Assembly: GCA_017557345.1 (NCBI GenBank)
Contig: JAFYZR010000124.1
Location: 1-63,206, forward strand
DNA length: 63,206 nt
Source: Paludibacteraceae bacterium
GTDB taxonomy: Bacteria > Bacteroidota > Bacteroidia > Bacteroidales > Paludibacteraceae
Reading direction: 5' to 3'
Both the position numbers and the translations under genes were made by a program. Position 1 is the first letter of the stretch, and the number at the start of each line of letters is the position of its first letter. Shown piece after piece: positions 27,190 through 63,206 of this stretch. Below the pieces are notes generated by a model. That model was not told the origin of the DNA, did no database searches, and worked only from the letters and a program-made list of their open reading frames with translations.

Positions 27190-27245
27190 TTTAAGTAGGT
27201 GATTAGTAGGTTATTAGTAGGTTATTAGTAGGTTATTTGTAAACT
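27190..27245. repeat. 11-bp tandem repeat ATTAGTAGGTT
   Basis: Three exact units (27202-27234) flanked by a diverged unit on each side, starting four bases after the HNH stop codon. The 11-bp period equals that of the CGA units in the dispersed element. Confidence 0.85.
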
Positions 27246-27329: not shown

Positions 27330-27366
27330 GGGTTAAGAATTAGTGAATTAGGGAATTAGGGAATTA
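27330..27366. repeat. Degenerate 8-bp tandem repeat (GAATTAGG-type)
   Basis: Units GAATTAGT, GAATTAGG, GAATTAGG and GAATTAGC run directly into the terminator stem. Confidence 0.6.
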
Positions 27367-27400
27367 GCGTCTGCTTCGTCAGGCGCTTTTCTTTTTTTTT
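27367..27400 (+). terminator. Terminator of the methyltransferase-HNH operon
   Basis: GCGTCTG pairs with CAGGCGC (27367-27373 with 27380-27386, one GU pair), loop CTTCGT, followed by TTTTC and a run of nine or more T. Confidence 0.8.
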
Positions 27401-27566: not shown

Positions 27567-27650
27567 TACAATATTTTATAATATAAATCACATATTATAT
27601 CATGTAATTGTGCAATGTGCAATTTCAATTTCGATAACTTTTAACTTTTA
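27567..27650. repeat. AT-rich 84-bp block, inverted copy at the right window end
   Basis: The sequence matches the reverse complement of about 63122-63206 with few differences. A 36-base core (27601-27636) containing TTGTGCAATGTGCAATTT appears identical. Confidence 0.85.
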
Positions 27651-27721
27651 ACTTTTAACTTATTAATATACTCTCTAATTCATAAGTACCGAGACAATCA
27701 CTATAACTACCGGGACAAAGT

Positions 27722-27753: not shown

Positions 27754-27776
27754 TCGTCGGAATCAGAAATCAAAGA

Positions 27777-27865
27777 AAAATAGAACATTTTGGGGTGGAA
27801 AAATTAGGACAAAACCTCGACATAATACCGATGAAACCTCGATAACCCGGAAAATTGAACATTTT
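27777..27865. repeat. Dispersed phased element, copy 1 (89 bp)
   Basis: Left repeat AAAATAGAACATTTT (27777-27791), a spacer that includes AATTAGGACAAAACCT, three 11-bp CGA units (27818-27850: CGACATAATAC, CGATGAAACCT, CGATAACCCGG) and right repeat AAAATTGAACATTTT (27851-27865). The terminal repeats start 74 bp apart. Confidence 0.9.
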
Positions 27866-27906: not shown

Positions 27907-27938
27907 TTTGCATATATCAGATTTTTTTTGTAATTTTG
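27907..27938 (+). promoter_or_regulatory. Promoter of the repeat-protein gene
   Basis: TTTG (27907-27910), 20-base spacer, TAATTTTG (27931-27938), extended -33 TTTGCATATATC. Leader about 17 bases before ATG 27963. Confidence 0.88.
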
Positions 27939-27962
27939 CACGCAAAATTGAAAACACCACTA

Positions 27963-28415
27963 ATGAGAACGAAATTAACCATACTGTTTTTGCTGCTAAT
28001 ATCACCGCTTATGGCACAGATAAAATGCTATCAGGGCCGCTCGAACTATTCGGGTGACATCCTCTACACCTGGGACGGGAAATACGTCTATAAGGGCAAT
28101 TCCACCTATTCAGGTGACATCCTTTATTCGTGGGACGGTAAGTACCTCTACAAAGGACGTTCGAACTACTCAGGCGATATTCTTTATACTTGGGACGGTA
28201 AGTATGTCTATAAAGGCCGTTCGAACTATTCGGGAGATATCCTGTACTCTTGGGACGGCAAGTATGTCTATAAAGGCCGTTCGAACTACTCGGGCGATAT
28301 CCTTTATACCTGGGACGGGCAGTATGTGTACAAAGGCAAATCGTTCTATTCAGGCGATATTATCACAACGACTGATGGCACGATTCCTGTTCCCATCATT
28401 CTCAGAATGATCTAA
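27963..28415 (+). CDS. Secreted protein of tandem 20-residue YSGDILYxWDG repeats
   Basis: 150 residues. The ATG at 27963 gives the signal peptide MRTKLTILFLLLISPLMAQ; an upstream in-frame TTG overlaps the promoter. From about residue 22 the protein is five 20-residue repeats and part of a sixth, consensus YSGDILYTWDGKYVYKGRSN, with a short hydrophobic end. The fourth position after ILY alternates Thr, Ser, Thr, Ser, Thr along the array, so the true unit may be 40 residues (120 bp). Regular aromatic and Gly-Asp turns suggest a beta-hairpin solenoid, somewhat like MORN repeats. The family is unknown to me. It sits behind a dispersed element and two promoters. Confidence 0.85.
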   Translation: MRTKLTILFLLLISPLMAQIKCYQGRSNYSGDILYTWDGKYVYKGNSTYSGDILYSWDGKYLYKGRSNYSGDILYTWDGKYVYKGRSNYSGDILYSWDGKYVYKGRSNYSGDILYTWDGQYVYKGKSFYSGDIITTTDGTIPVPIILRMI

Positions 28416-28460
28416 TTCCCTAACTCGCTAACTCGCTAACTCGAAAATCGTTAATCGAAA
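28413..28460. repeat. Degenerate 8-bp tandem repeat (CTAACTCG-type)
   Basis: CTAACTCG occurs three times in a row, followed by AAAATCG and TTAATCG units, filling the space between the repeat-protein stop and the glycosyltransferase ATG. Confidence 0.7.
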
Positions 28461-29445: not shown

Positions 29446-30675
29446 GTGGCTCAGGAACTGGATGCACAATTGATGACCGTTGAACGGGCATTGGGCGAGC
29501 GCATGATTGAGAGTGCGCTGGTTATTGTACGTTCCTGGCTCAACGAATTGGGCGAGAACAACCCGTACGAGGATGCCCATACCGCCATTCGCAAACGATA
29601 TAACGAGTTGTTTAGCCTTTGGCTAACTTCCGGAGACGAGCAGATAGATGTGCAGTTGAATAAACTGACAGGCGAAGCATTCCAATTAGTGGATGCTGTG
29701 TATGCCGATTTGCGTCTGGCTCGCGGCCTTTCGCCTGACATGCACGGCTTTAACCAGGACTCACCCCAATCGGTGATGAATTATTTCCTAAACTGCGTCC
29801 GTCTGCGTCCCGAAGATATCGAATGGCTGCATAAAGCGGTCAACGATGACAACCGTGTCGTGGCTGCGCTGATGGCTACTTCATCTCTCGCTCATAACTT
29901 GCGGGAGTGCTTCTCCATCGACGGCATTAAGGCACTCATCGACGGCATGACAGCCGAGAACAGCATCGTGGCGGCACAATGTATCGCCAGCGTACTGCTG
30001 CTACTCATTCAATATGATGTCCGGATAGACTTCTTCCATCAAGTGCAGGAATCATTCGTAGAAACCGTACGGTCGATGGACGACGAAGATAACACGGTAA
30101 TAAACGTGCTTTGCACGTTAATAGCATCCACCACCAAGCGTACCGACGCGGATTATGCCCGAGAGGTGGAGTCGATTTCAGAACTGCCGGATGTCTTGCA
30201 GCAGCTCTTCCGCGAGGCTGGAGTAGGCAAGGATAAGAACGCACTTGTCCAATGGTTCCCTTCCTCGGAAATGGATTATCTCGCGGGCTTGATGCGTATT
30301 CTGCCGGATACATGGGTATATGATGTGCTGACGGCCGATAACCCGTCCGTTGAACTGATCATCACCCAAGAGCTGCTGAAAAACGGTTATCGCGAGTCAC
30401 TATGGGAACATCCGACGGTAGCAGAACAGGTATTTCGTGAGAAACTGCGCAAGAAAGGCACTAAAACCCCGCAGGATTATATCAATTATGCCCATTGCTT
30501 GCTCTTCAGAGGCGATCGGATGATGGCCTATGAGAACTACCGCCAGGCACGTAACATGTGCAAAAACGTAAAGGATTTTTACAATCTTTTCCGTCCGGAT
30601 AGGGGAAACTTAGTGGATCATGGCGTTCCCTTGGAGCAGGTCTATCTGATCGAAGATCAGCTGTTTCAAGGATGA
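29446..30675 (+). CDS. Alpha-helical protein of unknown function
   Basis: 409 residues from GTG 29446; ATG 29473 is an alternative. No signal peptide. The protein is helical throughout with pairs of amphipathic helices (for example VVAALMATSSLAHNL, IVAAQCIASVLLLLI, TVINVLCTLIAS), which suggests a HEAT/ARM- or TPR-like solenoid, and TPR-like helices near the C-terminus (DYINYAHCLLFRGDRMMAYENYRQAR). I do not recognise a named family. It follows the glycosyltransferase closely and may be in its operon. Confidence 0.75.
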   Translation: MAQELDAQLMTVERALGERMIESALVIVRSWLNELGENNPYEDAHTAIRKRYNELFSLWLTSGDEQIDVQLNKLTGEAFQLVDAVYADLRLARGLSPDMHGFNQDSPQSVMNYFLNCVRLRPEDIEWLHKAVNDDNRVVAALMATSSLAHNLRECFSIDGIKALIDGMTAENSIVAAQCIASVLLLLIQYDVRIDFFHQVQESFVETVRSMDDEDNTVINVLCTLIASTTKRTDADYAREVESISELPDVLQQLFREAGVGKDKNALVQWFPSSEMDYLAGLMRILPDTWVYDVLTADNPSVELIITQELLKNGYRESLWEHPTVAEQVFREKLRKKGTKTPQDYINYAHCLLFRGDRMMAYENYRQARNMCKNVKDFYNLFRPDRGNLVDHGVPLEQVYLIEDQLFQG

Positions 30676-30711
30676 GCGATTAGTGATTAGTGATTAGCGA
30701 TTAGCGAGTTA
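30672..30711. repeat. Degenerate 7-bp tandem repeat (GATTAGT-type) between convergent genes
   Basis: GATTAGT, GATTAGT, GATTAGC, GATTAGC, GAGTTAG units fill the whole space between the stop codons of the helical protein and the leftward outer-membrane enzyme. Confidence 0.7.
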
Positions 30712-32010
30712 GAGAGAGACGCCTATTCCGGCATCGATAAACTCAGCCCTTACACCATGGGTCTTTAGACCCAACTGAACAAAGAGATGGTCAAGTACAT
30801 GATACTTGAGCACGAATTGCATATAGCACCAGCCATCCTCATAATTGCTGGCCTTCGAGAAATCATAAGCATAGAACAAGCCTCTGTGCAACGGTTCGCC
30901 ACCATTGGCCTTCACAGCCTCATACGGCTCTAAGTTCTTAATCGGGTCAAAGAGATAGAACCCGACATGCAGACCGGCCGTCAGATGGCCTATCATGAAC
31001 TCCGGCTGGATACTGACACCCATACGGAAACAGTTCTTTACCTTGCTCTCACGCAGATAAGTCTTGCCGAAATACGTAATCGGTGTCCCTTCCGGATTTT
31101 CAGCAGCAAACTCATCATTCACAGAGCGGTAATAACCGTCATAGAACGCATCAAATCCTGCGCCTAAACGGAAAATAGACACGGGCACCCAGTAGGCGGA
31201 TGCTTTCATCGTGGCTATGCCAAAGAACTGCTGGCCATTGATGTTATCGCGATAGTAATTTTGCTTCGCGCCACCTGTAACACTTATCTCAACCGCCCAT
31301 GGCTTATCTACATCATCATATAATTTCTTCGGCACATTCGGTTCCGGACAGGCGGATTTGTCGCTCAATATATCATGGGGCGCATAACTGATTCCTAATT
31401 CGCCGCCAAAGAGGTTATATCCGCTGTTGGGCTGCATGAAACTGCCGTTACTAATGTGCTGCCAACCTCCAGAGAGCCTGATCGCCCAACCGTCTTTGAT
31501 AGGGAAATCCATATACAGCTCCATCGCCAGATAGGCATTGAGAATCGAACCGATGGACCAGTTTGCAATCAGCTTGCCGTCTTGCTTAGCGGTAGAATAA
31601 GGAGCAACGTCATCGGGTAGGGTGTTCCGATAGGTCTTGTTCACAGCCGCCAAACCTACGGTTGGACGAACACCAATGCGGAAATGTGAGCCGTTATAAA
31701 ACGGCTGATTGATATATCCGTATGCTGCAAAAGCAGAACCGAGATAATGGTCATTACCCAGATTGAGATAACTGGCTCCAACTCCGATAGACGCATTATT
31801 CCATTGCTGCAGACTTTTCCAGCGGCCGGTAGGAAGGAACTCTACGGCAAACTGCCCACCAAAGGTGGGACGCTGAATCCATTGGTCCACTTTGTCGTCA
31901 CGCATCATCATCGCTGCAGAACCACCTAAACGGTAATTCAACTCATAATGAGGCAATCCGAACGCCTGTAAACAGGCGAATAATACTATAAAAACGCAGA
32001 TTTTTCTCAT
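30709..32010 (-). CDS. Outer-membrane acyloxyacyl hydrolase/PagL-like lipid A deacylase
   Basis: 433 residues from ATG 32010 (signal peptide MRKICVFIVLFACLQAFG). A longer frame opens at 32145 but crosses the promoter and murC, so it is rejected. The first half is a beta-barrel with the PagL-type active-site motif: His and Ser in WQHISNGS and a Glu in GGELGISYAP. PagL removes a 3-O-acyl chain from lipid A; Bacteroidota members are annotated acyloxyacyl hydrolase. The second half (about residues 235-433) is a further region of beta strands longer than PagL itself. The mRNA leader would be only a few bases. Confidence 0.8.
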   Translation of the reverse strand: MRKICVFIVLFACLQAFGLPHYELNYRLGGSAAMMMRDDKVDQWIQRPTFGGQFAVEFLPTGRWKSLQQWNNASIGVGASYLNLGNDHYLGSAFAAYGYINQPFYNGSHFRIGVRPTVGLAAVNKTYRNTLPDDVAPYSTAKQDGKLIANWSIGSILNAYLAMELYMDFPIKDGWAIRLSGGWQHISNGSFMQPNSGYNLFGGELGISYAPHDILSDKSACPEPNVPKKLYDDVDKPWAVEISVTGGAKQNYYRDNINGQQFFGIATMKASAYWVPVSIFRLGAGFDAFYDGYYRSVNDEFAAENPEGTPITYFGKTYLRESKVKNCFRMGVSIQPEFMIGHLTAGLHVGFYLFDPIKNLEPYEAVKANGGEPLHRGLFYAYDFSKASNYEDGWCYMQFVLKYHVLDHLFVQLGLKTHGVRAEFIDAGIGVSL

Positions 32011-42759: not shown

Positions 42760-42810
42760 AAAAAAGTGTCCAAAGGCATTTTTTTTGTGTAATTTGCAAG
42801 TCCAAAACCC

Positions 42811-42854
42811 CGACATAATACCGACATAATACCGATAAGATACCGATTAATAAT
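42811..42854. repeat. Four 11-bp CGA units, relative of the dispersed element
   Basis: CGACATAATAC twice, then CGATAAGATAC and CGATTAATAAT, without the flanking AACATTTT repeats. It lies between divergent promoters. Confidence 0.88.
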
Positions 42855-48298: not shown

Positions 48299-48330
48299 TT
48301 ATAAAGCATTTTTTTGCAAATTCGGAGAGA

Positions 48331-48418
48331 AAAATAGAACATTTTTATATAGGTGTTGCATAGGTAATAACCTCGACATAATACCGATGAGATCCCGATG
48401 GGAAAAATTGAACATTTT
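48331..48418. repeat. Dispersed phased element, copy 2 (88 bp)
   Basis: AAAATAGAACATTTT (48331-48345), a diverged spacer, three CGA units (CGACATAATAC 48374-48384, CGATGAGATCC, CGATGGGAAAA) and AAAATTGAACATTTT (48404-48418). Terminal repeats start 73 bp apart. The last CGA unit overlaps the right repeat by three bases. Confidence 0.88.
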
Positions 48419-48459: not shown

Positions 48460-48491
48460 TTTGCACATGTCAAAATTTTTTTGTACCTTTG
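48460..48491 (+). promoter_or_regulatory. Promoter of the carboxyltransferase gene
   Basis: TTTG (48460-48463), 20-base spacer, TACCTTTG (48484-48491), palindrome ACCTTTGC-ACCC-GCAAAGGT at 48485-48504. The region upstream is shared with 27866-27910. The leader before ATG 48554 is about 55 bases. Confidence 0.88.
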
Positions 48492-62613: not shown

Positions 62614-62853
62614 TTATTTTTTTGTTTCTTCAGGCATGGGATCTGCAAAATCACCGACTTGCTCTATTTGGCCATCCAGAACGGCTGGTGAACCATATTT
62701 AAGCATAACCATTTCTTCCGGCTCAGGACAACCATATTTTTCGATGGGTGCCGGACCGTAAAGACACTCATGGGAATCACAACTGGTGCCAAGCAATCCG
62801 AAGCTCATCGCACCAAGTATCACATTGATTCCATGTAACCATTTCTTTTTCAT
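62614..62853 (-). CDS. Small lipoprotein with repeated YGxP motifs
   Basis: 79 residues. The signal peptide MKKKWLHGINVILGAMSFGLLGTSC ends in a Cys likely to be lipidated. The mature part repeats a Tyr-Gly-x-(x)-Pro pattern (LYGPAPIEKYGCPEPEEMVMLKYGSPAV) and is acidic. Bacteroidota have a family of radical-SAM-associated putative lipoproteins with similar YG/P patterns, so it could be a modified peptide, but no radical SAM gene is in the window. The promoter has a palindrome over its -33 box. It leads pheT-prfC-transporter genes. Confidence 0.65.
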   Translation of the reverse strand: MKKKWLHGINVILGAMSFGLLGTSCDSHECLYGPAPIEKYGCPEPEEMVMLKYGSPAVLDGQIEQVGDFADPMPEETKK

Positions 62854-62890: not shown

Positions 62891-62922
62891 CAAAAGTAGT
62901 AAAAAAATTTTGAATTACCAAA
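62891..62922 (-). promoter_or_regulatory. Promoter with -33 palindrome, lipoprotein-pheT-prfC operon
   Basis: Minus strand TTTG (62919-62922), 20-base spacer, TACTTTTG (62891-62898). The -33 box lies within the palindrome TTACCAA-ATAA-TTGGTAA (62915-62932), a candidate operator. Confidence 0.82.
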
Positions 62923-63020
62923 TAATTGGTAAAAAAAATGAAGAAATACGTTTAATCGTACCCTATGGCTAAGAATTATGCTTGCATATATTTAGTTCAT
63001 CGGGAATTCCAAATTAAGGA

Positions 63021-63109
63021 AAAATTGAACATTTTGGAGTGAAAAAATTAGGACAAAACCTCGACATAATACCGACGAAACCTCGAAGAACCGTAAAATT
63101 GAACATTTT
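63021..63109. repeat. Dispersed phased element, copy 3 (89 bp)
   Basis: AAAATTGAACATTTT (63021-63035), spacer sharing GTG-AAAAATTAGGACAAAACCT-type sequence with copy 1, three CGA units (CGACATAATAC 63062-63072, CGACGAAACCT, CGAAGAACCGT) and AAAATTGAACATTTT (63095-63109). Terminal repeats start 74 bp apart. Confidence 0.9.
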
Positions 63110-63121
63110 AAGAAAAAAGGT

Positions 63122-63206
63122 TAAAAGTTAAAAGTATCGAAATTGAAATTGCACATTGCACAATTACATGATATAAGATGTGATATATGTATAATAAAAT
63201 ATTGTA
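63122..63206. repeat. Inverted copy of the 27567-27650 AT-rich block
   Basis: Reads as the reverse complement of the block beside the HNH gene, with TTGCACATTGCACAATT in the shared core. It is cut by the window end. Confidence 0.85.

Follow-up and report, generated by a model that had tools for sequence, protein, structure and literature searches.

Short repeated elements with conserved direct-repeat ends and variable 11-bp interior arrays in a Paludibacteraceae genome and its genus

Introduction

The 63,206-nt contig JAFYZR010000124.1 of a Paludibacteraceae bacterium (assembly GCA_017557345.1; the whole stretch is called the window below) carries three copies of a short element built of two like ends in direct orientation with 11-bp units between them, and the question raised by this locus is what kind of element has such a plan. 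An earlier, sequence-only reading described three copies with 15-bp ends 73–74 bp apart, suggested that this geometry matters, and proposed a protein-assembly site, a non-autonomous mobile unit or a recombinase site. All three copies are present as described (27777–27865, 48331–48418 and 63021–63109), with exact 15-bp ends spaced 74, 73 and 74 bp. In the following, the end is called R (R1 on the left, R2 on the right), and genomes and loci carry handles in G and L.

A genome-wide family with stepwise spacing

The end AAAATNGAACATTTT occurs in 85 exact copies in the 2.84-Mb, 155-contig genome, where a reversed-pattern control gives 0; at up to one mismatch the counts are 117 for the end and 90 for the core CGACATAATACCGA, with a reversed control of 2 in each case. 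The recurrence of the end is not due to chance. The number of three copies holds for the window, and the whole genome of this gut bacterium contains at least 51 end pairs that flank a core of 11-bp units, all in direct orientation, this minimum being drawn from 100 of the 117 end sites. Their spacings fall into 11-bp steps: 72–74 bp in 34 pairs, 83–85 bp in 7, 95–96 bp in 7 and 106 bp in 3, the last class having a longer end. The element length, taken at first to be fixed at 88–89 bp, thus changes by steps of 11. Segmental duplication of one region is ruled out as the source of the family, the 51 pairs being distributed over many contigs with flanks that mostly differ (a few are shared).

Alignment of 48 short-end pairs reveals sharp boundaries around the consensus [A/G]GAAAAATWGAACATTTT, which replaces the 15-bp limit proposed before. 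End positions 7–12 (GAACAT) are invariant in 96/96 ends of these pairs, a conservation that arises partly by selection, since pairs were accepted within a mismatch limit (at most 2 mismatches per end in this genome, at most 4 in the genus). The ends are imperfectly palindromic. As direct repeats with left boundary RGAAAA and right boundary ATTTT, the 48 short-end pairs have no terminal inverted repeat, and the flanks of 48 elements show no clear excess of matches indicative of target-site duplication (best 7 against 3.8 expected, at 2 bp).

Between these ends, the interior is more variable. No gene lies inside the elements; gene calls around them come from a greedy open reading frame (ORF) heuristic, under which 12 of 48 R–core–R (RCR) elements overlap a called ORF. 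The first unit, opening with CGA, is CGACATAATAC in every window copy as had been noted, and elsewhere in the genome it is CGACTTAATAC as well. Composite interiors reappear in the same order at unrelated loci. Copies 1 and 3 of the window represent one subfamily and copy 2 another, differing in the left interior; the spacer of copy 2, which had been considered drifted, is that of this second subfamily, seen at other loci. Additionally, 26 of 88 clusters have the core but lack R.

Interior period and array similarity within genomes

Over lags of 5–20, the strongest interior period is 11 bp in 45/46 interiors. Interior identity reaches 0.53 at lag 11, 0.44 at lag 22 and 0.37 at lag 33, compared with 0.22–0.27 at other lags (0.25 at lags 10 and 12), and the values are much alike when this genome is excluded. 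Bare 11-bp arrays without R likewise have period 11. The repeated unit itself changes from genome to genome, being TTTAACCACGG in G034, ACTCCGATAAG in G033, GGCGCGAGAGT in G315, CCCCGATATAA in G319 and CGACATAATAC here. In 395 kb of relatives' DNA, on contigs chosen by earlier search matches, Tandem Repeats Finder (TRF) returns 211 rows, which can overlap; 62 have 7-bp units, 28 have 11-bp, 15 have 12-bp and 3 have 10-bp units.

Arrays are more alike across the loci of one genome than across genomes at a given locus. The mean array score is 33.3 within one genome (40 pairs; 22.1 over 25 pairs without this genome), 11.8 for the same locus between genomes (215 pairs) and 9.5 for other pairs (780), the pairs not being independent. 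Label permutation reaches the within-genome similarity in 0/5000 trials. Six elements of this genome entered the comparison, together with the hand-added loci L046, L048, L098, L099, L100, L106 and L167, whereas L183, with its spacing of 117, was left out, as was L186, which shares its locus with L198. When five of the hand-added loci (L046, L098, L099, L100 and L106) are dropped, the within-genome score is 18.1 (17 pairs) and permutation gives 1/5000.

Distribution in the genus and in other DNA

The short-end form is private to this species: exact 17-bp short ends number 66 in this genome, and 4/177 congeners have single matches. A longer direct-repeat end, AATCTTAAAAATNGTACATTTTT, is spread through the genus, where it flanks 11-bp arrays of different sequence. 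By its 20-bp core pattern, with at most 1 mismatch, this long end is present in 90/300 family genomes, of which 79 belong to the same genus, and the 11 outside it have one or two matches each. Among 20 genus loci examined, 19 are direct-repeat pairs, with spacings of 73, 93, 95, 104–107 and 117 bp. Computed for 38 pairs, of which this genome contributes one, the Rayleigh vector length is 0.90 for an 11-bp step and 0.88 for 10.5 bp, a nearly equal fit, so that spacing alone cannot separate the helical turn from the unit length.

The element plan is common to the genus, the interior letters differing by species and the spacing being kept. Seen across the genome and its relatives, spacing is not random, and it is the architecture, not the short end, that relatives possess. 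The proposal that the geometry matters is strongly supported, both by the 11-bp-step spacing outside the species and by the shared interior period.

Carriage by phages or plasmids was rejected, copy 1 having no match in phage or plasmid records and one long-end element none in plasmid records. The long end is present in 3 viral contigs. Two of these, L300 (1492–1512) and L301 (6472–6492), have the same sequence and carry the long end with a degenerate second end 65 bp upstream, a spacing that does not fit the 11-bp series. The short end matches 95 stretches of viral records, with one weak pair among 84 of them. Matches in L119 and L128 (Desulfobacterales HSG2) are unrelated, dense palindromic repeat arrays with a AAAATGGGACATTTT core.

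The engB junction

One junction, which we take to lie between engB and a TonB-receptor-like gene, permits comparison of the element at one place across species. R-array-R is present in 19 of the 30 best engB loci and absent in 11; these 30 are the best matches of 118 genomes with engB, a choice by which close relatives are over-represented. G324, with an R2-like site and a doubtful partner 69 bp away, is not counted as a pair. The R2 variant GTAAACTT occurs in 13/19 loci and the R1 variant CGTGTA in 7/19, and since such locus variants are common to several species, the ends descend together. In 11/19 loci the TAA of R1 lies at the end of the engB frame, and the first part of the signal-like peptide of the downstream protein is, in this genome, encoded by R2 sequence.

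The ends and the downstream DNA are well conserved at this junction (mean identity over 171 pairs 0.75 for downstream DNA, 0.82 for R1 and 0.93 for R2), whereas the interiors average 0.55 against 0.50 for shuffled interiors. The array is largely unrelated between species except in close pairs. Between G004 and G224, identity is 94% in the downstream DNA, 88% in R1 and 100% in R2, while the interiors reach 48%, shuffled interiors giving 50%. The pair G029/G301, with 95% downstream and 72% in the interior, corresponds to ordinary accelerated divergence. A supposed solo R in G224 was rejected, as the full R-array-R is present there.

Next to serS, two species have arrays of similar units in opposite orientation, at L193 (1492–1618) and L081 (2951–3076), their ends having the same orientation, which hints at inversion or at independent replacement. 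The serS arrays of G000 and G254 appear inverted relative to one another.

Placement relative to genes and promoters

The elements are oriented with respect to the gene that follows them. Among RCR elements with a called downstream gene, that gene is co-directional in 35/45 (p = 2.5e-4), or in 36/49 when four RR clusters are added (p = 1.4e-3); upstream gene orientation is even, at 24 versus 24. For bare arrays the downstream gene is co-directional in 17 cases versus 8 (p = 0.11). The motif TTTG-N17-22-TAnnTTTG, which we take to be the Bacteroidetes promoter pattern, occurs within 150 bp downstream and reading away in 19/51 elements and upstream and reading away in 11/51, and it reads into the element in 0 cases upstream and 1 downstream; random windows contain it in 46/4000. 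These counts are not all independent, as some elements share flanks. Where such a promoter is seen, its direction places the element upstream of the promoter and not in the leader.

Some elements lie between co-directional genes, a few bases from the stop and start codons. At such operon junctions the upstream gene's stop is a TAG within R1 in six elements and lies in or at R1 in two more. At one of them, the protein of this genome ends in ..KRLEK* with the stop in R1, while in G015, where the element is absent, it ends in its own C-terminus, ..KRLKANS*, and the next gene begins 18 bp past the stop.

Elements and other repeats in the window

Copy 1, a subfamily 1 element with spacing 74, occupies 27775..27865 on the + strand as judged by sequence and end-pair alignment. 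It comprises R1 (GAAAAATAGAACATTTT, 27775..27791), three 11-bp units (CGACATAATAC, CGATGAAACCT and CGATAACCCGG, 27818..27850) and, continuous with these, R2 (AAAATTGAACATTTT, 27851..27865). A promoter-like TTTG...TAATTTTG at 27907..27938 (+), located by sequence and pattern count, is directed away from it toward the gene at 27936–28415 (Bflower_3), the other neighbor being a GmrSD/HNH-domain protein. Copy 2, of subfamily 2 with spacing 73, spans 48329..48418 (+) between divergent genes, a cytidylyltransferase (CTP_transf_1, − strand) and a carboxylase-domain protein (+ strand). Its units are CGACATAATAC, CGATGAGATCC and then CGATGGGA (48374..48403, +), and downstream of it a promoter-like TTTG...TACCTTTG at 48460..48491 (+), found by the same pattern count, is directed away. 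Copy 3, again of subfamily 1 with spacing 74, lies at 63019..63109 (+), with its first unit CGACATAATAC at 63062..63072 (+), upstream of a divergent − strand ORF starting at 62853; a promoter-like site at 62891..62922 (−) is directed away from it. Near this copy are a small ORF without a Pfam match and then the phenylalanyl-tRNA synthetase beta chain.

A bare array without R ends, in which CGACATAATAC appears twice and is followed by CGATAAGATAC, is located at 42810..42846 (+). The matching gap in congener G015 measures 26 bp against 114 bp here, so the bare array is absent there. A separate 11-bp tandem array without R ends, AGTAGGTTATT in 4.4 copies, lies at 27194–27241, directly 3′ of the GmrSD/HNH gene. 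Arrays of 7–8 bp units (TAACTTT, GAATTAGG, CTAACTCG and GATTAGC) occur at 27635–27666, 27337–27367, 28412–28443 and 30671–30712; by eye, some congeners have 7-bp repeats at gene junctions where other congeners have R-array-R. Downstream of copy 1, the Bflower_3 (six-fold beta flower) protein contains 60-bp tandem repeats (28028–28360).

Copies 1 and 3 are adjoined by an 80-nt inverted repeat pair of 86% identity (27583–27662 and 63109–63188). A similar flank follows the elements in L047 and L085, the contig of the window terminating inside the repeat, and another dispersed repeat can thus adjoin the cassettes.

Discussion

On a balance that leans modestly this way, the elements are short, non-autonomous, MITE- or BOX-like intergenic mobile cassettes with direct R ends, moved by an enzyme acting in trans and with interiors exchanged or homogenized within genomes. 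The combination of no clear target duplication, no inverted-repeat terminus and no gene inside leads to their being read as cassettes moved in trans. Judged from their letters, the R ends behave like recognition sites, being conserved, imperfectly palindromic and apparently helically phased. A trans-acting recombinase, transposase or initiator would recognize them, and the array may offer this enzyme, or a partner, a series of binding sites in helical phase. Copies would spread by insertion, and interiors would be exchanged or converted between copies, possibly through RecA-mediated conversion via ends and arrays instead of a dedicated enzyme. By analogy, the palindromic ends, the 11-bp iterons and the missing target duplication could point to copying by a rolling-circle (HUH-type) mechanism. 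Outside genes the elements would be tolerated by the host, and at some operon junctions the upstream stop comes from R1 and R2 lies at the next gene's start. Of the natures that the sequence-only reading put forward, a non-autonomous mobile unit fits best, given a burst of at least 51 pairs, the near absence of short ends from 177 congeners and one presence/absence difference. A recombinase site or protein-assembly site fits less well, no enzyme or binding protein having been found at the Y1_Tnp and tyrosine-recombinase loci examined.

Several observations weigh against mobile cassettes with exchanged interiors. Within-genome array similarity does not rise above background for the 1 pair of G191, for 2/3 pairs of G034 and for 4/10 pairs of G288. 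Presence or absence of an R element at an orthologous junction is clear for only one pair, that with G015. The serS and dut junctions have the pair in 1/30 loci each, in this genome only; pairs are present in G254 (serS) and G004 (dut) at separately retrieved loci. Long persistence at one place is accordingly shown for engB only, so orthologous persistence rests on one junction. Absence of both target-site duplication and terminal inverted repeat means that the element is not a classical miniature inverted-repeat transposable element (MITE). Active R × R integration should yield R-array-R-array-R, and none is clear among the 51 pairs, although in L044 a third site is present that carries 2 mismatches. 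The Y1_Tnp match and 14 tyrosine-recombinase matches, 15 loci in all, have no R pair or core in a search confined to these two families in this genome and not extended to Rep, IS91 or further transposases; a lone R-like site is present in L296, one of these loci. Finally, the biases in orientation and promoters also fit a selected regulatory site.

Such a dispersed regulatory site, at which both R ends, phased on the helix, are bound by a protein and the DNA between them is looped upstream of promoters, the array being filler that changes by whole 11-bp turns, is an unlikely explanation that nevertheless deserves to be taken seriously. It would account for the almost invariant ends, for spacings of about 7, 8, 9 or 10 helical turns, for promoter-like sites that read away on both sides and for the co-directional downstream gene. 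However, the genes around the three window copies, the only copies whose genes were annotated, share no theme, some elements lie within operon junctions with a stop codon in R1, and the short end is not found in 173/177 congeners. Moreover, bare arrays have the 11-bp period without R, so phasing of R is not its cause. A structured RNA element in intercistronic mRNA is the least probable explanation. It would suit elements between co-directional genes close to stop and start codons, and the two ends are predicted to pair in many folds of genus elements. The mean folding z over 51 elements is only −0.92 on the element strand and −0.46 on the other; the interiors of 22 elements have no common fold by eye; the window and 15 loci have no Rfam match besides two tRNAs (Rfam 15, gathering score); and the matched-pattern promoters start downstream of the element instead of reading in from upstream.

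Two further explanations place the array itself at the center. Plain slippage would make short tandem repeats that are immobile, with the ends as coincidental flanks. The frequency of 7-bp and 11-bp arrays in the TRF rows agrees with this, as do, on visual inspection, the other short repeats present at the same junctions in several species that lack the pair; yet slippage could not make a 15–17 bp end recur 85 times in register with the array, nor does it explain composite interiors recurring in the same order at unrelated loci, and the explanation is very improbable. Little credence, slightly less still, is given to the arrays as iterons bound by a polymerizing or centromere-like DNA-binding protein with a nucleoid or segregation function. 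Many copies of 11-bp phased units, with and without R ends, are what it would lead one to expect, but at one locus the array differs wholly between the close relatives G004 and G224, which is unusual for an essential site, and 11/30 species lack the pair at engB. Centromere-like (parS/parC) sites have a cognate partition protein and cluster near the origin; a segregation role finds no support in these data.

For the mobile cassettes with exchanged interiors, the conserved part is the geometry of 11-bp steps together with the end pair, whereas families of interspersed repeats in bacteria are usually defined by their sequence. Should the exchange prove real, the cassettes offer a natural example, amenable to study, of concerted evolution in bacterial non-coding DNA, and they would point to an enzyme that places cassettes at gene junctions and renews them there. 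A bolder extension, speculative and on present evidence unlikely, is a "dialect" system in which 11-bp arrays of fixed period and free sequence between conserved ends are read by a factor that changes its specificity from species to species, the arrays being rewritten in step chromosome-wide as interiors are exchanged between fixed ends. The factor might be an unrecognized rolling-circle initiator or another DNA-binding machine, and such a system, if true, would be a bacterial case of a non-coding recognition ladder evolving in concert.

Comparison with known systems

No prior description of these cassettes was found in the open-access literature searched. REP/RAYT (REPIN) elements consist of a palindromic unit adjoining a Y1 transposase gene; membership was rejected, as the single Y1_Tnp locus, L284 (2.7 kb), has no R or core. 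In a CRISPR array, repeats are separated by unique spacers. This assignment was likewise rejected, since each element has two ends and interiors are common to several loci.

The anatomy of the cassettes resembles, by analogy, a rolling-circle origin. In the pMV158 origin, a hairpin loop holds a nick site 84 bp away from three tandem repeats of 11 bp, with binding on one side by way of a GC-rich region, and the likeness extends to 7-bp repeats nearby; it is, however, a plasmid origin with one nic locus as far as the excerpted account goes, whereas in the cassettes, known from sequence alone, two R copies flank the array (PMC9943647). IS91 is described, in the part of the source available, as lacking inverted termini and target repeats, and the cassettes share this feature of IS91-type HUH elements, having neither terminal inverted repeats nor target duplication (PMC5714925). 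The TAACTGA heptamer repeats of Beggiatoaceae, some Cyanobacteria and Bacteroidetes are likewise abundant, short, tandem, direct and intergenic, but have a fixed 7-bp sequence, with no end cassette described in the excerpt (PMC4679880).

Among interspersed repeats, dRS3 of the neisserial intergenic mosaic elements (NIME) is a repeat of 20 bp, its inverted ends measuring 6 bp, that forms mosaic arrays of 200–2700 bp and is a phage target; the likeness, as partially documented, is that a short conserved repeat built on an inverted-repeat core is joined to variable intergenic units of 30–160 bp, and recombination has been proposed to occur at this repeat (PMC3898611). The cassettes differ in having two ends per element, with no long mosaics seen. 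BOX, RUP and SPRITE of Streptococcus pneumoniae, likewise small and interspersed, have multiplied within one species, are thought to be parasitic and are few or absent in most relatives; the portion of the source at hand attributes extensive secondary structure to them and does not mention an 11-bp phase, whereas the cassettes fold weakly (PMC3049150).

The cassettes are short, present in high copy, non-coding and limited to a single lineage, as MITEs are. Porphyromonas gingivalis, which belongs to the same order as this bacterium, harbors the MITE BrickBuilt. According to the excerpted description, BrickBuilt occurs in 19 copies and has an internal minisatellite of 23-nt units in 1 to 22.8 copies, a distinct leader and tail, and small inverted-repeat ends similar to ISPg elements; like the cassettes, it is short, always intergenic and species-limited, with tandem repeats inside conserved flanks and no transposase remnant inside (PMC4596501). 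The cassettes, with at least 51 pairs, differ from it also in their 11-bp units, in having like ends in direct repeat without terminal inverted repeats, and in arrays that vary from species to species; membership was rejected because the unit is 11 bp and not a 23-nt unit with leader and tail. By their partial descriptions, none of BrickBuilt, BOX/RUP/SPRITE and dRS3/NIME combines direct-repeat ends with a sequence-free 11-bp interior, and BrickBuilt, as so described, is the nearest published relative in kind.
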